In this document: in pieces, positions 1 to 26,941 of the stretch | Position numbering within the stretch: position 1 is the stretch's first letter | Layout of the letters: every line of letters starts with the position of its first letter | DNA from: Lachnospiraceae bacterium | GTDB taxonomy: Bacteria; Bacillota; Clostridia; Lachnospirales; Lachnospiraceae | Direction of reading: 5' to 3' | NCBI GenBank assembly: GCA_014804795.1 | Contig: JAAUZC010000027.1 | Span: 1 to 58,725, forward strand | DNA: 58,725 bases | The notes under the pieces: model-generated | Database searches by the model: none | What the model was told of the DNA's origin: nothing | Seen by the model: the letters and a program-made list of their open reading frames with translations, nothing else | Program-made: the position numbers and the translations under genes

Positions 1-395
1 AGGCACTCCGCCCAGATCCACCGGGATGATCACTTTTGTCTTTTCCGTGATGGCGGCCTCCAGTGCATCATAATCCATCTCAAAAGAATCTTTCCGGATA
101 TCCACCAGTTTCAGCCTGGTCCCCACATGGCAGACCACGGACGCCGTGGCAGTATAAGTATAGGCAGTGGTGATGCACTCGTCTCCTGCCCCGACCCCCA
201 GCAGGCGCAGCGTCATCTCCGCGCAGGCTGTCTGGGAGTTTAAACAGACACTCCTTGGTGTGCCGAGCCATGCTGCACACTTTTTTTCCAGTTCTTTTGT
301 CCGCGGTCCGGTGGTGATCCAGCCGGAACGCAGCGCCTGTATCACTTCATTTATTTCCGCCTCTGTTATATCCGGCGGTGAAAATGGGATCTGCA
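1..395 (-). CDS. DegT/DnrJ/EryC1/StrS-family sugar aminotransferase, N-terminal part (cut by window edge)
   Basis: Reads leftward from an ATG at 395 and stays open to the window edge, so only about 131 N-terminal residues are visible. The start (MQIPFSPPDITEAEI), the SGWITTGP stretch, the cofactor-phosphate loop around NSQTACAEM and the TAYTYTATA and KVIIPVDLGG segments are typical of PLP-dependent aminotransferases that aminate nucleotide-linked keto-sugars. The PLP lysine lies in the missing part. It is the first sugar gene downstream of the two LoaP-like genes and is separated from them by an intrinsic terminator at 476-506, so its transcription should depend on antitermination. The sugar substrate cannot be told from the visible part. 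Confidence 0.85.
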
Positions 396-475
396 TTTTT
401 TCTTCAATCCTTTCAATAAACGCTTTTTTCTATCTCCCTAATCTCATTACAATTCATTCTCCAAAATACACACAT

Positions 476-506
476 AAAAAATAAGCCATGGTCTCCCACA
501 GCTTAT
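476..506 (-). terminator. Intrinsic terminator between the antiterminator genes and the sugar operon
   Basis: On the minus strand an 11-bp stem (ATAAGCTGTGG paired with CCATGGCTTAT, two G-T wobbles, loop GAGA) is followed directly by six T residues. It lies downstream of the 548-1060 gene and upstream of the aminotransferase start at 395. A terminator placed inside an operon just after NusG-like genes is the kind of site a LoaP-type factor would be expected to override; that role is inferred. Confidence 0.65.
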
Positions 507-547
507 CTTCTCAATCTATATTCTCGTCTTATCCTATCTTTCTGTAT

Positions 548-1060
548 TTACCGTTTCTCCACAATCTCCAACCCGACCTCCACCAGCTTTGTTTCCCCAA
601 AAATCTGCATCTCAATAAACGCAACGCGTTTATGCCGGTCAACTTTCCGTATCACAGCCTCCATCCCCATCAGACCACCGGAAACAATCCTGACCTCATC
701 CCCATCTATCATTCCATAAGAAATCTCCGCCTCATCCCCATCCCCGGTAAGCTTTTTCAAAAACTCCTCTTCCTCATGCGAAATGGGATAAATCTCATTC
801 TCCACATAATTCCTTAATAATCTGGAAAACTTTGTTACCTTTTTAAGTGCCTCCCACGCCGGCCAGGGTGAATCCGCGATCAAAAACAAGTACCCCGGCA
901 AAAGCCTTTCTCTCTCTTCATGCCACCTGCCTTGATATCGTTTTTTTCTCACATAATATAAAACCCGGCATTCCTCATAACTATCTATTGGCAGATACTT
1001 CTCCACCATCTGCCTTACGATCTCTTCCTGCCCTGCCAGTGTCTGAATAACATACCACAT
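548..1060 (-). CDS. NusG-paralogue transcription antiterminator, LoaP/RfaH-like (second of a tandem pair)
   Basis: A 170-residue protein with the layout of specialised NusG paralogues: an N-terminal NGN domain starting MWYVIQTLAGQEE, containing a LLPGYLFL stretch near residues 53-60, and a C-terminal KOW domain (EVRIVSGGLMGMEAVIRKV, then KRVAFIEM). These proteins bind paused RNA polymerase at specific leaders and allow read-through of long biosynthetic operons; in Firmicutes the LoaP branch serves polysaccharide and secondary-metabolite clusters. The start at 1060 has AGGGGAAC as ribosome binding site, which directly follows the dyad at 1070-1116. It lies about 180 bp after a second, diverged NusG paralogue, with a terminator and a sugar gene downstream. 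That it is LoaP rather than another NusG paralogue is judged from length and context. Confidence 0.85.
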   Translation of the reverse strand: MWYVIQTLAGQEEIVRQMVEKYLPIDSYEECRVLYYVRKKRYQGRWHEERERLLPGYLFLIADSPWPAWEALKKVTKFSRLLRNYVENEIYPISHEEEEFLKKLTGDGDEAEISYGMIDGDEVRIVSGGLMGMEAVIRKVDRHKRVAFIEMQIFGETKLVEVGLEIVEKR

Positions 1061-1069
1061 AGTTCCCCT

Positions 1070-1116
1070 CTATTTTGCCGCTTCGCAGTTCGTTCCCACG
1101 AATACAGGCAAAATAG
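1070..1116 (-). promoter_or_regulatory. Dyad in the leader of the second LoaP-like gene
   Basis: Two perfect 10-bp arms (CTATTTTGCC at 1070-1079 and its complement at 1107-1116) enclose a loop that itself contains a smaller TTCGT/ACGAA hairpin. In the minus-strand RNA the structure ends a few bases before the AGGGGAAC ribosome binding site. It has no following T-run, so it is not a classic terminator. LoaP-family proteins are known to recognise RNA hairpins in leaders, so this is a candidate site for recruitment or translational control. Confidence 0.5.
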
Positions 1117-1239
1117 ACAGGCTTCGCCATCCATGCCAAAACAATATTTCGGCACAGTACGACTCCCTATGTGTTCAACCCGTTCCGAAACGCGGCAATG
1201 CGACGATTTCTTCCCTGATTTGCTTATTTTGTATTTTTC

Positions 1240-1749
1240 TTAATCAAATTCAATTCCCAGATACAGCATCTTTTTCTGTCCCATAAAATCTGTTTCTATT
1301 TCTGCAATTCTTTTATGGAAATCAATCTTTTTTATCAGATCTTCCACCTGCAGAAGCGGTCCCGACAGTATTTTTATCTGCCCGTTCTCTTCTACTGCAA
1401 TCTTTGAAAGACCAATCTCACCCGGATTTTCATTATATCCCGTGATTTTCTCTATCAGATCGGCTTCCCGCTCCTCCAATGTCGCAACATATTCGTCATT
1501 GCTCCACAAAATTTGCGGTTTTTTTGCTTTCTTCAGTTCTCTGTGAAGCTGCTCCGGCTTGTCCGTCGTGATAAAGATATAGCCCGGCAGAATATTTTCC
1601 TGCACTGTCCGCCATTCTCCACCATACTTTTTTCGCCTGTATCTGGTCAGATGAAAGCATTGCGCGTCAAAATCATTCGGAAGCAGGTTTGATACAAATG
1701 TTTCCATCTGTACTTCATTTCCACCTTTTACATGCATTGCACACCACAT
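1240..1749 (-). CDS. NusG-paralogue transcription antiterminator, LoaP/RfaH-like (first of a tandem pair, next to the invertible promoter)
   Basis: A 169-residue NusG paralogue starting MWCAMHVKGGNEV, with an ILPGYIFI segment in the NGN domain and a KOW domain near the C terminus (IKILSGPLLQVEDLIKKIDFHKRIAEI). An upstream in-frame start exists 18 codons earlier, but it lies inside the inverted repeat and lacks a ribosome binding site. The chosen ATG at 1749 has AAAGGGGT about 8 bases before it. The gene is the first one reached from the strong promoter at 1860-1888 inside the invertible segment; its ribosome binding site overlaps the outer edge of the left inverted repeat, so inversion would keep the gene intact and only remove its promoter. 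Clearly diverged from the neighbouring paralogue, so not a recent duplicate. Confidence 0.87.
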   Translation of the reverse strand: MWCAMHVKGGNEVQMETFVSNLLPNDFDAQCFHLTRYRRKKYGGEWRTVQENILPGYIFITTDKPEQLHRELKKAKKPQILWSNDEYVATLEEREADLIEKITGYNENPGEIGLSKIAVEENGQIKILSGPLLQVEDLIKKIDFHKRIAEIETDFMGQKKMLYLGIEFD

Positions 1750-1760
1750 GTTCAGACCCC

Positions 1761-1799
1761 TTTCTTTTCGCAGATTTTTATAATCTGCGAAAAAGAAAA
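1761..1799. repeat. Left 39-bp inverted repeat of the invertible segment (recombination site)
   Basis: This 39-bp stretch is found again, exactly and in reverse complement, at 3153-3191. Each copy is itself an imperfect palindrome: arms built on CGCAGATT and AATCTGCG flank an asymmetric 5-bp centre, TTTAT here and ATAAA in the other copy. Paired recombinase-binding arms around a short asymmetric spacer, in head-to-head orientation, are what a tyrosine-recombinase inversion site looks like. Confidence 0.9.
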
Positions 1800-1859
1800 C
1801 CATACTGACTAAAATAAAATCTTTACAAACAACAATGCTTTCCTATTGAAAACAAAGAT

Positions 1860-1888
1860 ATTATACAATTTTATGTGACTTTAGTCAA
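1860..1888 (-). promoter_or_regulatory. Strong sigma-A promoter inside the invertible segment, directed at the LoaP-like genes
   Basis: On the minus strand, -35 TTGACT (1883-1888) and -10 TATAAT (1860-1865) are separated by exactly 17 bp. Predicted transcription starts near 1853, giving a leader of roughly 100 nt that runs through the left inverted repeat before the start codon at 1749. Confidence 0.8.
1876..1887. promoter_or_regulatory. Palindrome overlapping the -35 box of the invertible promoter (possible operator)
   Basis: TGACT-TT-AGTCA is a perfect 12-bp palindrome lying over the -35 hexamer of the minus-strand promoter. A protein bound here would occlude the promoter. The regulator is unknown. 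Confidence 0.35.
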
Positions 1889-1978
1889 ACGCTTTTTCAG
1901 ATTTCACGCTATGTTAATAAGGCTTTAGCTTTTAATTACCGGAAATGAAGTTTGAAAAAAAGAAATTTTTATTTATTA

Positions 1979-1997
1979 GTGGTCACAAAAGTGGTCA
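1979..1997. promoter_or_regulatory. Direct repeat GTGGTCA x2 just upstream of the recombinase gene
   Basis: Two copies of GTGGTCA at 1979-1985 and 1991-1997, spaced 12 bp, end about 18 bp before the recombinase start. They could be recombinase arm sites or an operator for autoregulation; neither can be decided from sequence. Confidence 0.35.
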
Positions 1998-2015
1998 GAA
2001 AGGAAAGGAGAAAAT

Positions 2016-3137
2016 ATGCCACGACACGGAGAAAACATTCGGAAAAGAACAGATGGAAGATGGGAAGGAAGATATACTGTATATCTTCCCGGAAAAGGAA
2101 GGCAACAAATATCAATTTATGGAAAAACTTATAGTGAAGTAAAACGAAAGAGGCAAGATGCATTGGAGGCATCAAATGAAAAAAATCTGTATTCTAAAAA
2201 TGAAATTTTCTTTGAGGATGCGCTGCAGGGATGGCTTGTAAAAATAAAAAAAACAAAAAAACCTGCCACATATGTCAAATATTGTTCCATTTATGAGACT
2301 TATCTGGAAGATATTCTGACAAATTATCCTCTCAGTGAAATGACAACAGATTATTTTCAGGAGATGCTTACTGATAAAATAGCTGACTGTTCTGAAAGCA
2401 TCAGAAAAAGTATTTACAGCGTTCTTACCGGTGCCCTAAACTATAGTGCCGAAAACTATCATACATTGCCCGTTCGTTTAAAGAGAGCACCGTCTCCTCG
2501 TCCCACAAGAAAGTTGGATATTTACACGAAGGAAGAGCAGACTGTCTTTTTGCGTTACCTCTATACAGATATGAGTGTTACAAAAATGGGAATTGTATTA
2601 TGCCTTTCTACAGGGCTTCGTCTGGGAGAGGTATGTGCGTTGAAATGGGAAGACATTAATTTTCAAAAAAAGGTGCTGAACGTTAATCATACAGTACAAA
2701 GAATGCCTGTTAATAATTATAAAAAGAAAACTGCACTGTGTGAAGGAACTCCCAAAACAAACTGTTCCCAAAGGGAAGTTCCTCTATCGGATGAAATATT
2801 GCAGTTGTTATCCAAATTTAAACATCAAGGTAAATATGTCTTAAATAACAAAAAGCCGTTGGAACCCCGTACATATCAATATCAATTTCAGAAATTCCAG
2901 CAGGAAGCAGGCATTACATGCAGAAATTTCCATGTTCTCCGTCATACTTTTGCAACCAACTGTATCGGGAGCGGTATTGATGTAAAAAGTCTCAGTGAGA
3001 TTTTAGGACATTCTGATGTTCATATTACCTTAAATAAATATGTGCACCCGACGTTGGATACGAAACGTCAGCACATGAACACAATTTCTTCTATTTATGG
3101 TCAAATTGTGGGTCAGAGCATTCAAAATATCTTCTGA
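2016..3137 (+). CDS. Tyrosine recombinase (integrase family), predicted DNA invertase of the switch
   Basis: A 373-residue protein with an N-terminal AP2-like arm-binding region (about residues 8-50, RKRTDGRWEGRY), a SAM-like core-binding domain (about 65-150) and a catalytic domain carrying the full set of active-site residues: R202 in TGLRLGE, a likely Lys near 247, H306 and R309 in HVLRHT, H332 in LGHSD and the nucleophile Y342 in NKYVHPT. It should be active. The start at 2016 has an AAGGAG ribosome binding site. The gene lies wholly between the 39-bp inverted repeats and no other integrative-element gene (excisionase, relaxase, phage gene) is nearby, so a role in inverting its own segment fits better than integration. 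The family resemblance is to Tn916-type integrases rather than to small FimB/XerC-type invertases. Confidence 0.92.
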   Translation: MPRHGENIRKRTDGRWEGRYTVYLPGKGRQQISIYGKTYSEVKRKRQDALEASNEKNLYSKNEIFFEDALQGWLVKIKKTKKPATYVKYCSIYETYLEDILTNYPLSEMTTDYFQEMLTDKIADCSESIRKSIYSVLTGALNYSAENYHTLPVRLKRAPSPRPTRKLDIYTKEEQTVFLRYLYTDMSVTKMGIVLCLSTGLRLGEVCALKWEDINFQKKVLNVNHTVQRMPVNNYKKKTALCEGTPKTNCSQREVPLSDEILQLLSKFKHQGKYVLNNKKPLEPRTYQYQFQKFQQEAGITCRNFHVLRHTFATNCIGSGIDVKSLSEILGHSDVHITLNKYVHPTLDTKRQHMNTISSIYGQIVGQSIQNIF

Positions 3138-3152
3138 TTTCGAACAATTCCC

Positions 3153-3191
3153 TTTTCTTTTTCGCAGATTATAAAAATCTGCGAAAAGAAA
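3153..3191. repeat. Right 39-bp inverted repeat of the invertible segment (recombination site)
   Basis: Exact reverse complement of 1761-1799, beginning 16 bp after the recombinase stop codon. Identity stops abruptly on both sides of both copies, as expected for recombination sites and not for duplicated genes. Confidence 0.9.
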
Positions 3192-3201
3192 AGCGATAAC
3201 A

Positions 3202-3245
3202 AAAGCGTTGAAACCCCTCTTTCTGTTTCAACGCTTTAAACTTTT
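3202..3245 (+). terminator. Intrinsic terminator just outside the right inverted repeat
   Basis: A perfect 13-bp stem (AAAGCGTTGAAAC at 3202-3214, complement at 3225-3237) with a 10-nt loop is followed by AAACTTTTT. It would end the recombinase transcript as drawn. In the flipped orientation it would stop transcripts from the invertible promoter before the 3439 gene. Confidence 0.7.
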
Positions 3246-3325
3246 TCTTTCCTTTCAGAATCATACATAATATAAAGATAAAATGTATTCGCAAGACGAA
3301 CATGTTTTGTCTGATAAAATCCTTC

Positions 3326-3354
3326 TGGACAAAATTCCCATATAAGGATACAAT
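3326..3354 (+). promoter_or_regulatory. Sigma-A promoter for the 3439-4572 gene
   Basis: TGGACA (3326-3331) and TACAAT (3349-3354) lie 17 bp apart, each one mismatch from consensus, about 85 bp before the start codon. The promoter is outside the invertible segment, so the downstream gene should not depend on the switch. Confidence 0.65.
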
Positions 3355-3438
3355 TTTACTACATTTATTTCTCAGTGCATAAGCCGCTATTGCTTTTCAC
3401 ATCCTACTTAATAAGTTTTCAGAAAGGTTATATGTAAA

Positions 3439-4572
3439 ATGTCAAATAACGATCAGGAATTGAAGAACCGTAATAACCGTCCCAAAGAACTGGAATGGAT
3501 AGATTTGGAAGAAGATATGTCAGAGGAAGAAGAACGGGAAGAAAAACCGCCTGCAAAGCGTCCTCCAAAAAAACAACAGCAAAAAAGAAAACCCACGCCA
3601 AAAAAGAAAACATCCAAAATCAGTTTTCATGTGATCTTTCTCGCTCTGATCGCTGTCGTTTTTGTTGTCATTGTTTTTAAGCTGGCTTTCTGGGGTAAGA
3701 GAGAGCGGCCGAATAACGACATCGAAAATGACACAACACTTTCATTTGATACAGAAGCGTTAGACTCTATCGTGCCCCTTGATTCCTCTGACACGAGTCA
3801 AAAAGAAAAAGATGATGATCTGAGAATTTTATTTTTGGGCAACGGTTCACTTGCCGACAACAAAACATCCGATACTAATATTGCAAATATCGTACAAAAA
3901 AAGACCGGCGCTACAGTTTATAACTGTGCCATTCCCGGTTCTTATATGAGTGCTAAAAATACCACTTATATTAGCTCTTATCCGTACGATGCTTTTTCTT
4001 TTTACTACCTGTGCACTCTTTTGGCAATTGACAACACTAAAACTATCTCCTGGGCCGAGCGGGATATGGGCCGCCTGCCGGAAGAGATAAAAGAGCCGCT
4101 TGATCTTTTGCAGTCTATCGATCTCAATGAGCTTGATATCCTTTGCATTTATTATGATGGAGCGGATTATCTGGAGCAGAGAGGGGTATCAAATTTGGAT
4201 AATGAGACCGATGTCGCCACATTTTCCGGGGCTCTCGCCGCCGGGCTTGAACTGATTCAAACAGCCCTGCCCCATACCCGTATTATTGTTATGTCACCCA
4301 CTTATGTTTATGTTGTGGATGCAGATGGCAATTATTCTTCCTCTTACTTTACGGATATTCTGGAACAACCCCTCTCGGCCTATATTGGTTTTGAGGCAGA
4401 AACCTGCATGGAATACAATGTCTCTTTTGTCGACAATTTTTACGGCAGTGTCTACGAAGAAATTGCGGATGAATATCTGAAGGACAATATTTTATTGAAC
4501 GAAAAAGGACATACTCTCCTCGCTGATCGATTCCTGTATGCCCTGAACAGATTCCATGATTACGATTTTTAA
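3439..4572 (+). CDS. Membrane-anchored, divergent SGNH/GDSL-like protein
   Basis: A 377-residue protein in three parts: a highly charged cytoplasmic N terminus with an acidic stretch (about 20-36) and a Lys/Pro/Gln-rich stretch (about 37-56), one membrane helix (about 57-80), and an extracellular domain. That domain has an SGNH-like order: FLGNGSLAD where GDS is usual, a YDGADY segment where GTND is usual, and LNEKGHTLLAD where the catalytic His block is usual. The Asp of GDS and the Asn of GTND are not evident, so hydrolytic activity is uncertain; an acyl-transfer or binding role is possible. Start chosen at 3439 behind AGAAAGG. It stands alone on the plus strand behind its own promoter, convergent with the long minus-strand operon. 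Confidence 0.65.
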   Translation: MSNNDQELKNRNNRPKELEWIDLEEDMSEEEEREEKPPAKRPPKKQQQKRKPTPKKKTSKISFHVIFLALIAVVFVVIVFKLAFWGKRERPNNDIENDTTLSFDTEALDSIVPLDSSDTSQKEKDDDLRILFLGNGSLADNKTSDTNIANIVQKKTGATVYNCAIPGSYMSAKNTTYISSYPYDAFSFYYLCTLLAIDNTKTISWAERDMGRLPEEIKEPLDLLQSIDLNELDILCIYYDGADYLEQRGVSNLDNETDVATFSGALAAGLELIQTALPHTRIIVMSPTYVYVVDADGNYSSSYFTDILEQPLSAYIGFEAETCMEYNVSFVDNFYGSVYEEIADEYLKDNILLNEKGHTLLADRFLYALNRFHDYDF

Positions 4573-4578
4573 TTCAAT

Positions 4579-5364
4579 TCAGAAACCACCCATACTCGGG
4601 TCTAATCCCAGATAAGCTCCCTCTTTTAAATAAATACGGTAACCGGCTACTGTTTTCACACAATGGTAGTCGGTTTTTTCAAATCCCTCCTGTCCCGGTT
4701 TTGTCTCATTCATAATAATATAGTGACACTCCTGTTCTGCCGCCAGTAAAGCGATCTTTTCACAATCCGGCTCCTCCTCCTGCATTGCATCATACAACGG
4801 ATTTTCGTTCCACCATCGTTCCACCTGCATCTCTCTTCCATACGGCATGCAGACATAAGATGTATACTGCCTGACATATTGAAGCATCTCATTCGGAAAA
4901 ACTGCCCGCACTTCCCGGCCTTCCACAATGATGGCATCACAGACAAACGCTACTGTCCGCGGCACATGAAATCGATTCTCGGCAGGACTGAAAAAAGGAT
5001 TATCATAGACATAGTCCCCCGTGGCCACGATCACTATGCACACTGCAAACGCCGCCAATCTTTTCACCCATTTCCTAGAAACTCCCGCCACCACTTTGAT
5101 TCCCGCATAAGCGATCACTGCCGTCATCGGCACAAGCCATAAAATGCGATAGTAAGTTTCCTCATCCATATAATCGCAGACCTTACTTGCAAACAGCGGA
5201 AAAAAGAACAGTGCCATGATCAGGGCGGAAAGATATAGCAGGATAATTCTCTTCGTTCTGTCCTTTTCCGTAAACAACAGATAGAGAAACGCCGCTGCAA
5301 AAAGTCCTGCCGCCAATCCATTTCCTATATAATTTTTGAACATGAGAATAATTTCATTCCACAT
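4579..5364 (-). CDS. Membrane protein of unknown function, last gene of the long operon
   Basis: A 261-residue protein with about four N-terminal membrane helices (to about residue 115) and a soluble C-terminal domain of about 140 residues ending in a stretch that includes HYIIMNE and VAGYRIYLKEG. Such a C-terminal end resembles the extracytoplasmic tails of large GT-C-like membrane proteins. The preceding gene (5389-6537) ends in a membrane region, so the two may be the halves of one larger protein family (DUF6077-like) encoded as separate genes; a normal ribosome binding site (AAAGGAAAAAT) precedes this start, which argues against a sequencing frameshift. No enzymatic motif recognised. Confidence 0.6.
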   Translation of the reverse strand: MWNEIILMFKNYIGNGLAAGLFAAAFLYLLFTEKDRTKRIILLYLSALIMALFFFPLFASKVCDYMDEETYYRILWLVPMTAVIAYAGIKVVAGVSRKWVKRLAAFAVCIVIVATGDYVYDNPFFSPAENRFHVPRTVAFVCDAIIVEGREVRAVFPNEMLQYVRQYTSYVCMPYGREMQVERWWNENPLYDAMQEEEPDCEKIALLAAEQECHYIIMNETKPGQEGFEKTDYHCVKTVAGYRIYLKEGAYLGLDPSMGGF

Positions 5365-8840: not shown

Positions 8841-9368
8841 CTACACCGTGTCCGGATTCAAAACTCCCATCAAGACTACATCCCGGTAAACACCGTCAAT
8901 ACATACTTCCTCTTTTAAATAAGCTTCCTGTTCAAATCCCGCTTTCTCATAGCTTCTGATTGCCGCCTTATTTTCGGGAAACGCCCGCAGAATGATCTTA
9001 TGCCACTTCGCCATCCTGAACCCATAATCGCATGCAAGCCGGCAAGTCTCCGATCCGATTCCTTTGCCGACAGCATCATCCTCTCCAATAAAAATGCCAT
9101 ACTCCGCCCTGTGATGCTCCTCACTGATATCCCGAAAATAAACACTTCCAACGGGTCTGTCCGACTCCCTCTCGCAGATAATAAACTGGATCACCTCGCC
9201 GGTATTTACCCTGTTTTTAATCCAGTCAAGATGCCCTTCCCTGGTAAAATTCTTCTGATAAATAAAGTTTTTCCGCACTCTGGGATTATTTCTCCAACTT
9301 ATGATATGATCTGTATCCGCCTCCGTCATCAGACGAAGATACACTTTTTCCCCTGTTAACTGTATCAT
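8841..9368 (-). CDS. GNAT-family N-acetyltransferase, probably acting on a 4-amino-4,6-dideoxy sugar
   Basis: 175 residues of RimJ/RimL-type GNAT fold: WRNNPRVRKNF near residue 27, the acetyl-CoA loop GKGIGSET near 107, and the C-terminal NKAAIRSYEKAGF. A GTG start nine codons upstream is open but the ATG at 9368 is preferred; GGAGG lies about 13 bases before it, a slightly long spacing. It directly follows a WecE-type aminotransferase, so acetylation of the new amino group is the most economical role. Pseudaminic acid synthesis also needs an N-acetyltransferase (PseH), and this protein shares the general PseH fold, so it could serve that pathway instead. Confidence 0.75.
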   Translation of the reverse strand: MIQLTGEKVYLRLMTEADTDHIISWRNNPRVRKNFIYQKNFTREGHLDWIKNRVNTGEVIQFIICERESDRPVGSVYFRDISEEHHRAEYGIFIGEDDAVGKGIGSETCRLACDYGFRMAKWHKIILRAFPENKAAIRSYEKAGFEQEAYLKEEVCIDGVYRDVVLMGVLNPDTV

Positions 9369-9460
9369 ATCTGTTCTTCGTCCTCCTTCTGTCACTCTGA
9401 CGCATTCTCTGTCCTGTTTACATCATCTTTCAAGAACCATTCCTCTGGAGCATCCCTATT

Positions 9461-25747: not shown

Positions 25748-26941
25748 ATGGAAAAACCTGCAATCTGCGGCGGAACACCTGCCTGTCAGACACCTGTTCA
25801 ATACGGGAAACAATATATTGATGACGCCGATATTCAGGCTGTCACAGAAGTTTTAAAGAGCCCTTTTTTAACCTGTGGTCCCCGGCTTCCGGCTTTGGAG
25901 CAGAAGTTTTGTGAGATCACCGGTGCAAAATATGCCGTGGCTGTCAGTAATGGCACTGCCGCACTACATATTGCCTGCATTGCTGCAGGAATAGGACCGG
26001 GCGATGAAGTCATTACTACGCCTATTACTTTCGCCGCCTCCGCAAACTGTGTTTCTTACTGCGGCGGCAAGCCTGTCTTTGCAGATATTGATCCCGAAAC
26101 TTATAATATAGACCCTGCTTCCATAGAAGCATGCATTACGCCGCGCACAAAGGCTGTTATTCCTGTGCATTACACAGGGCAGTCCGTGGCTTATGATGAG
26201 ATTGCCGTTATCTGTAAAAAGCACGGGCTTATATTGATTCAGGATGCCGCTCATGCGGTCGGCACCCGCTATAAAGGAAAGCCCATCGGCTCCCTGGCCG
26301 ATATGACCTGCTTTTCCAGCCACCCCGTCAAAACGGTCACATCCGGCGAGGGCGGCATTGTGACAACCAATGATGAGGCACTTTACAGGAAGCTTCTTCT
26401 GGCAAGAAGCCATGGCATCACCAGAGACCGGGGGCAGATGACCGATCCATCTGATGATCCCTGGTACTACGAAATGGTGTCGCTCGGATATAACTATAGG
26501 CTTACCGATATGCAGGCGGCGCTGCTTTCCACCCAGCTTGATAAACTCCCTGCATTTTCAAAGCGCAGAAAAGAAATCGTGGCCCGTTATGATGAGGCTT
26601 TCCGAGAAACAGACGGCATCATTGTCCAGAAAGAAATACCGGAATCCGATACCACAAGACATCTCTATGTGATACAGCTTGATCCGGATGTTCTCACCTG
26701 CAGCAGACGTGAATTTTTCGATGCAATGGCAGCCGAAAATATCCACTGCCAGGTGCACTATATCCCTGTCTACAGACTTCCTTATTACCAAAGGCTTGGC
26801 TATCCGAAAGGACTCTGCCCGAATGCAGAACGCCTTTATGAGCGAATTCTGAGTATTCCGCTCTACTATTCCCTGACGGATGAGCAGGTGGATGAAGTTA
26901 TCTCTGCGGTGAGAAAGCTGTGTGCTTATTACCATAAGTAA
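25748..26941 (+). CDS. pseC: UDP-4-amino-4,6-dideoxy-N-acetyl-beta-L-altrosamine aminotransferase
   Basis: 397 residues of a DegT-family aminotransferase with the PseC pattern: QYIDDADIQAVTEVLKS, FLTCGP, NGTAALHIA (phosphate binding), TTPITFAASANCV, QDAAHAVG, PLP lysine K195 in SHPVKTVTSGEGG, ITRDRG, and the PWYYEMVSLGYNYRLTDMQ stretch. It converts the PseB product to the 4-amino sugar. The gene sits on the opposite strand to pseF/pseI/pseG and to pseB, with its own promoter, so the pathway is split over three units. A possible bidirectional terminator follows. Confidence 0.9.
   Translation: MEKPAICGGTPACQTPVQYGKQYIDDADIQAVTEVLKSPFLTCGPRLPALEQKFCEITGAKYAVAVSNGTAALHIACIAAGIGPGDEVITTPITFAASANCVSYCGGKPVFADIDPETYNIDPASIEACITPRTKAVIPVHYTGQSVAYDEIAVICKKHGLILIQDAAHAVGTRYKGKPIGSLADMTCFSSHPVKTVTSGEGGIVTTNDEALYRKLLLARSHGITRDRGQMTDPSDDPWYYEMVSLGYNYRLTDMQAALLSTQLDKLPAFSKRRKEIVARYDEAFRETDGIIVQKEIPESDTTRHLYVIQLDPDVLTCSRREFFDAMAAENIHCQVHYIPVYRLPYYQRLGYPKGLCPNAERLYERILSIPLYYSLTDEQVDEVISAVRKLCAYYHK

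Follow-up and report, generated by a model that had tools for sequence, protein, structure and literature searches.

In Bacteroides, one recombinase is known to govern phase variation of surface polysaccharides globally. The Salmonella Hin/hix switch has an outward promoter and a Fis enhancer. The gene for the Hin recombinase is described as lying within the invertible segment (PMC5903667), and Hin as a serine invertase (PMC11868660). In Bacteroides fragilis one serine recombinase, Mpi, is reported to serve at least 13 invertible regions (PMC5903667), and Bacteroides UpxY antiterminator genes are positioned so as to be driven by invertible promoters (PMC11892184). The tyrosine recombinase RecV of Clostridioides difficile acts on several switches, and an invertible fimbrial segment of 844 bp in Providencia stuartii encloses a recombinase ORF (both PMC5903667). 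Inverton group 139 (invertase group 35) comprises 33 invertons, 32 of them in Clostridia and nearly all beside a tyrosine-type recombinase or integrase; they were called from reads in both orientations (PMC11892184). A search of the mostly open-access literature that combined LoaP with inversion or with phase variation gave nothing beyond a preprint which, in the text available, deals with megabase inversions in Eggerthella lenta (PMC13174815).

The DNA analyzed here, hereafter the window, is a stretch of 58,725 nucleotides (contig C27) from a Lachnospiraceae genome. Its features of interest are collected in Table 1. Taken jointly, the observations are best explained, with a probability of roughly 0.8, by segment 1761-3191 being a phase-variation switch for LoaP and polysaccharide, whose recombinase would also flip a second segment on contig C10 of the same genome, the 5-bp centres of the recombination sites serving as addresses.

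Table 1. Features of the putative switch and its surroundings, in positions of the window
Feature	Position	Strand	Remarks
DegT/DnrJ/EryC1 sugar aminotransferase, first gene of presumed polysaccharide operon	1-396	-	cut by contig end
Terminator-like hairpin with T-run, between loap1 and downstream operon	476-511	-	found by folding; presumed LoaP read-through point
loap1, LoaP antiterminator	548-1060	-	NF033641, 151.4 bits, above cut-off 125
loap2, LoaP-like antiterminator, promoter-proximal	1240-1749	-	NF033641, 121 bits, cut-off 125
Left inverted repeat	1761-1799		recombination core 1767-1791, centre TTTAT
Promoter TTGACT-N17-TATAAT, outward	1888-1860	-	toward loaP, across left repeat (ON as assembled)
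Direct repeat GGTCA-N7-GGTCA, period 12	1981-1997	+	upstream of recombinase; proposed arm-type site
Tyrosine recombinase, 373 aa	2016-3137	+	inside repeat-bounded segment
Second GGTCA-N7-GGTCA	3099-3115	+	in 3' end of recombinase ORF; starts 87 bp from outer edge of right core
Right inverted repeat	3153-3191		core 3161-3185, centre ATAAA (left centre, inverted)
Terminator-like hairpin adjoining right repeat, outer side	3202-3237		fold -16.1 kcal/mol, 13-bp stem, 10-nt loop

The two 39-bp repeats are 100% complementary and stand 1353 nt apart, an exact match far above chance expectation. Each contains a 25-bp palindromic core, TTCGCAGATT-N5-AATCTGCGAA, and the asymmetric 5-bp centre (TTTAT/ATAAA) is inverted between the copies. 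Inverted repeats around an outward promoter, as required of an inverton, are present in the window. The idea that the repeats are RNA hairpins (terminators or leader elements) which chance to flank an integrase relic is hardly credible: the left repeat does fold as an RNA stem-loop (-17.7 kcal/mol), but no T-run follows it, and the asymmetric centre is inverted between the copies, as in 30 of the 31 site pairs described below (4 of 5 bases in the last); this reading was rejected. The hairpin beyond the right repeat has a loop too long for the limits of the pattern scan, and the one downstream of loap1 was also absent from that scan; both were found by folding.

The recombinase ORF is intact and belongs to the Phage_integrase family (PF00589; 101 bits, cut-off 27.1). 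The catalytic residues R202, H306, R309, H332 and Y342 are all in place, and this R-H-R-H-Y set is identical in 45 of 45 aligned recombinases (alignment A4: 43 of the 69 relatives without internal stop, the window and L055). The closest solved structures by sequence are the Int proteins 6en0, 6emy and 6emz, which we take to be the Tn1549 integrase. Pfam found no arm-binding N-terminal domain in the protein. At E<=1e-70 the window recombinase is the only one counted in its genome; 8 further matched stretches are more distant tyrosine recombinases.

A simple promoter scan of 400-4700 gave 14 promoter-like sites versus 10.4 in shuffled sequence and is not telling alone. The window promoter, of the sigma-70 type, is credible because its layout is conserved in relatives, not because of the scan. 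The N-terminal part of the recombinase probably uses the GGTCA direct repeats as arm-type sites. The sequence-only reading had described exact 39-bp inverted repeats with an asymmetric 5-bp centre, a complete recombinase with the five catalytic residues inside them, and a TTGACT-N17-TATAAT promoter pointing out at two LoaP-like genes; all three were borne out. The switch on C10 described below, the GGTCA direct repeats, both terminator-like hairpins and the start of the window within a polysaccharide gene go beyond that reading.

The LoaP profile score of loap2 lies just below the cut-off, and the next best model, UpxY, reaches 29 bits. The hairpin downstream of loap1 has a similar counterpart in the corresponding position of the relative L055. 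The window begins at a contig end within the DegT polysaccharide gene, of which 132 codons are all that is visible of the polysaccharide operon. Contigs C27, C10 and C36, all of them LoaP-bearing, each break within a DegT gene; the close similarity of these genes would explain the breaks. An element resembling RAGATH-28 RNA, which includes ATGGCGAAGC, stands beside LoaP in the window (1121-1203, minus strand) and in two relatives (L035 2072-2145, L036 2032-2104). It was rejected as a firm LoaP leader, with 24-27 bits against a cut-off of 45.3 and an above-cut-off match in none of 14 other LoaP loci; it could be a LoaP-responsive element. The window also holds pseudaminic-acid-type sugar genes, namely PseC (25748-26941, plus strand; 477.6 bits, above its cut-off) and a PseH-like acetyltransferase (8841-9395, minus strand; 85.8 bits, below the cut-off of 93.1).

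A search of the whole genome for the core, allowing up to 3 mismatches, returned exactly four sites, the window pair and a pair on C10 (232904 and 233303); the control gave 0. Both inverted pairs stand in front of LoaP genes, and both switches are assembled ON, in one assembly. The C10 segment is about 0.4 kb long, carries no recombinase, and has a TTGACT-N17-TATAAT promoter toward three tandem LoaP genes. Its sites differ from those of the window at 1 and 2 positions in the arms and have AGGAT as their centre where the window has TTTAT. At the third LoaP locus of the genome, on C36, such repeats were not found. The segment in the window had been called a self-contained switch; this it probably is not, as the same genome has the C10 satellite with near-identical arms before LoaP genes and without a recombinase. 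Of 62 LoaP regions, 6 have inverted repeats upstream: those of the window, L053, L063 and L205, and two in which the arms are of another sequence, L206 and L233. In these last two (L206 4475-4925, L233 4729-4985) the repeats upstream of LoaP are palindromic. Judged from these arms, phase-variable LoaP may have more than one origin.

The best reading of the locus is an invertible promoter with its own recombinase, working via LoaP. The recombinase would bind the 10-bp arms of each site and exchange strands across the 5-bp centre, so that the 1.4-kb segment flips. In the ON state, as assembled, the promoter would transcribe loap2 and loap1, and LoaP would carry RNA polymerase past the hairpin downstream of loap1 into the DegT-led polysaccharide operon. 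In the flipped, OFF state the promoter would run into the hairpin beyond the right repeat and stop there. The recombinase would move together with its own upstream region and, as it keeps that region on flipping, is proposed to be active in both states. As the only close copy in the genome, it would probably also flip the C10 satellite promoter in trans, before the three LoaP genes, and the differing 5-bp centres would act as addresses that bar recombination between the two switches. Among four of these proposed roles, confidence is highest for the action in trans on C10, second for the address role of the centre, third for the GGTCA repeat as an arm site and lowest for LoaP read-through at the putative terminator.

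That the promoter is invertible, has its own recombinase and acts through LoaP had been predicted from the window. In favor of this, relatives share the anatomy and have their targets on either side. Against it stands the nearest relative found, G001 (= L073; recombinase 68% and LoaP 76% identical), in which repeats around recombinase and LoaP were not found and the promoter is fixed toward LoaP. On a different contig of G001 a repeat pair of the window type precedes two LoaP genes. In G356 the recombinase on C69 lies between sites 3.9 kb apart, and a further site pair stands before LoaP on C101. A former switch frozen ON, in which inversion has ceased in the species or the recombinase is retained only for the C10 satellite, is improbable: it would suit both the ON state of the two assembled switches and the sister G001 with its recombinase beside LoaP, but here the repeats are perfect over 39 bp, the ORF is intact, and neither the catalytic residues nor the promoter nor either GGTCA repeat has been lost. 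Decay would be expected of a dead switch, and these intact parts count against one. The switch in the window is itself well supported.

The family was surveyed in a scan of named genomes which gave 550 relatives; the set analyzed is the best 80 and not a random draw. Their titles are mostly Lachnospiraceae or its genera, the rest being bacterium, Clostridia, Clostridiales and Clostridiaceae. Among these best 80 of 550 the recombinase is enclosed by inverted repeats in 60, and the right arm follows the gene match at a distance of 22 to 138 bp. Where the sequence extends at least 600 bp ahead of the match and at least 200 bp beyond it, 58 of 76 loci are enclosed and 18 are not. A recombinase inside its segment had been taken for a peculiarity of this locus; it is common to 60 of 80 relatives, and Hin is a classical precedent. 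The arms resemble those of the window in most relatives and differ in L133 and L139. More distant integrases on viral contigs are enclosed in 8 of 57 cases; L256, L257, L258, L259, L275 and L291 are such viral-contig integrases bounded by palindromic inverted repeats. Similar cassettes may be carried by phages or prophages. In L056 (6535-9165) and L057 (4337-8084) extra ORFs within the repeats, putatively for Rpn/PD-(D/E)XK transposase-type proteins, bring the cassettes to 2.6 and 3.7 kb.

The outward promoter with a spacer of 17 occurs in 51 of 60 cassettes (window included), on the other strand in none and in the flanks in 1; when spacers of 15-19 were allowed, the spacer was 17 in 47 of 47 promoter matches. 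The recombinase strand carries GGTCA-N7-GGTCA in 58 of 60 cassettes, whereas the other strand and the flanks each gave 0 of 60; the pattern was defined after inspection of the same cassettes, with the other strand and the flanks as controls. The distance between its start and the outer edge of the far core is 82 to 87 bp in 47 of 59 cassettes; in 4 it lies elsewhere within 200 bp, and in 8 it is lacking there. The promoter and GGTCA tallies omit L125, for which the wrong repeat had been picked; the position count further omits L091, whose right arm is cut. Among 19 segments without recombinase, 18 have the promoter and 15 the GGTCA repeat, and 9 of the 15 have a copy at 85 to 87 bp; none of the 18 with promoter has it on the opposite strand.

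LoaP was rejected as the usual target of the family: the LoaP profile matches 2 of 80 loci, G001 and, weakly, L139. The latter has a weak LoaP-like gene (3719-4531; 56.7 bits, cut-off 125) on the right-hand side of an enclosed cassette whose arms differ, and is possibly a second switch with master recombinase and LoaP, in the OFF state. Among the first genes tested beyond long segments are those for CpsB/CapC, glycosyltransferases, sortases, an FHA/FtsK protein, a TnpB-like protein, an HA helicase, DUF4379 and two further integrases; four have no Pfam match, one of them the protein beside L139. Beyond short segments nine first genes were tested: in G408 four of glycosyltransferase type (one DUF1972) and an epimerase, and outside G408 two HA-domain helicases and two DUF4379 proteins. 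The commonest first gene met beside the cassettes encodes a TnpB/Cas12f-like protein (L145 6992-8323, L146 6991-8304 and 17 other loci). The PF07282 TNB domain was tested in L146, to whose protein the others are 51-91% identical. Phase variation of a TnpB-like protein would be odd. Second among the common first genes is one for a DEAD-type helicase with repeated HA domains (L143 7203-9284, L093 3267-5549 and 8 further loci), domains which were tested in L143, L248 and L251; in L117 a bacterial sugar transferase comes next.

Targets lie on both sides of the cassettes. Of 61 loci, 26 have an outward ORF at up to 420 bp on the right only and 15 on the left only; 16, the window among them, have one on each side, and 4 have none. 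Flanks match on opposite sides between L093 and L097 of one genome (91.7% over 2497 bp), between L078 and L086 (86.4% over 1762 bp) and between L103 and L118, again of one genome (93.4% over 1127 bp); in many other locus pairs the matching flanks are on one and the same side. A tree of 30 recombinases with recognizable targets, whose sides were set by hand from flank matches and alignments, requires at least 11 changes of side, compared with 9.6-9.7 for shuffled labels. A tree of 31 rows, which includes L119 (grouped as TnpB-like at only 20% identity and left out of the smaller tree), gave 11 versus 9.7-9.8. Since side changes are as frequent as chance on the recombinase tree, orientation is not inherited and the family of cassettes inverts in nature, as read from assemblies of single species, which do not reach to switching within a strain. 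Both orientations are known from relatives, and the window locus from one ON assembly.

A site search blind to the centre found sites in 21 of 23 genomes; the control pattern had one match, in one genome. Pairs were analyzed in 12 genomes (window's included), with 75 of the 119 sites, which form 31 neighboring pairs and leave 13 unpaired. All 31 pairs are inverted and none is direct; the centre is identical in 30 and agrees in 4 of 5 bases in one. This centre-blind count replaces the centre match of 59 of 61 among cassettes, which is partly built in (repeats chosen as inverted repeats). That the cassette is a small integrative element, with the terminal repeats as ends and not flip sites, is very unlikely. 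Such an element would suit two observations: among solved structures, Int proteins (6en0 and kin) are closest to the recombinase, and cassettes of this kind precede genes that differ widely. Against it, targets lie on either side of otherwise matching loci. Excision by tyrosine recombinases requires direct sites, and on the count of 31 inverted and 0 direct pairs this reading was rejected.

The pair spacings are of two kinds: 18 pairs of 271-472 bp (about 0.4 kb, too short for a recombinase) and 13 of 1373-1491 bp (about 1.4 kb). A recombinase lies inside each of the 13 long pairs; in L332 (G413) it is a more distant one (36%), and in L333 the match is in two pieces. We read the two sizes as master recombinase cassettes and putatively 'addressed' satellite promoters. 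A single recombinase at E<=1e-70 was found in 9 of 10 genomes searched; G000, G356, G408, G413, G418, G420 and G421 each have this one recombinase and 2 to 7 site pairs, the status of G413 depending on the E limit, with a second one just outside 1e-70. In G408 the one recombinase (L080) is not enclosed, and there are seven short pairs. Inversion of the C10 promoter segment is unlikely to be the work of a recombinase of the genome other than that of the window. The 8 stretches of distant tyrosine recombinases in the genome provide candidates, and G413 offers a case of a second, more distant recombinase (36%) inside such a site pair; but the two switches have near-identical arms, for which the genome has no further site at up to 3 mismatches, the genomes with one recombinase at this limit include seven with several site pairs, and satellites have the promoter and GGTCA layout of the cassettes.

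Tyrosine recombinases are known to require identical centres in partner sites. Sites that are not neighbors have the same centre in 21 of 300 comparisons, so that cross-talk is possible in places. In G412 (C17/C8) and G418 (C3/C4) different switches of one genome have the same 5-bp centre; recombination between them could rearrange the chromosome.

These observations suggest, with somewhat less confidence than for the window and C10, a system found across the Lachnospiraceae: one tyrosine recombinase, usually self-enclosed, would flip its own switch and satellites, the centre would be the address, and a GGTCA arm site, partly in the 3' end of the recombinase gene, would serve both; at least two LoaP-led polysaccharide loci would be varied independently in the genome studied here. 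If true, a single enzyme sets a combinatorial cell surface. Another major gut group would have reached a convergent answer, combining an enzyme of the integrase type with an address code and a processive antiterminator. The switches of a Lachnospiraceae genome, their present state and the permitted cross-recombination would become predictable from sequence, with a bearing on phage resistance and on immune recognition of gut Firmicutes. Phase-variable LoaP is predicted in at least three genomes, the window's, G001 and G356.

Clostridial invertons as such are already known; new are the combination and the LoaP target. Group 139 may be the same family as the window cassettes, compared by description and not by repeat motif; its description in the text available of PMC11892184 makes no mention of satellites, 5-bp addresses or LoaP. 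RecV has other targets and, in the account given in PMC5903667, is not described as lying inside its own switch, unlike the window recombinase. The Providencia stuartii segment differs from the window in serving fimbriae, in its 14-bp imperfect repeats and in its host, a gammaproteobacterium, and satellites are not described in that account (PMC5903667). With Hin/hix the window shares the recombinase gene inside the segment and the outward promoter; it differs in that its enzyme is a tyrosine (Phage_integrase) and not a serine recombinase, and in the GGTCA repeats, the satellites and the LoaP target. Like Mpi, one recombinase would serve several switches with shared arms (2 in the window's genome, 7 in G408), the action in trans being proposed; unlike in Mpi and UpxY, the enzyme is a tyrosine recombinase inside its own switch in most relatives, the antiterminator is LoaP and not UpxY, and the hosts are Lachnospiraceae. 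By this comparison, we read the window system as a likely Firmicute counterpart of Mpi with a self-enclosure like that of Hin.
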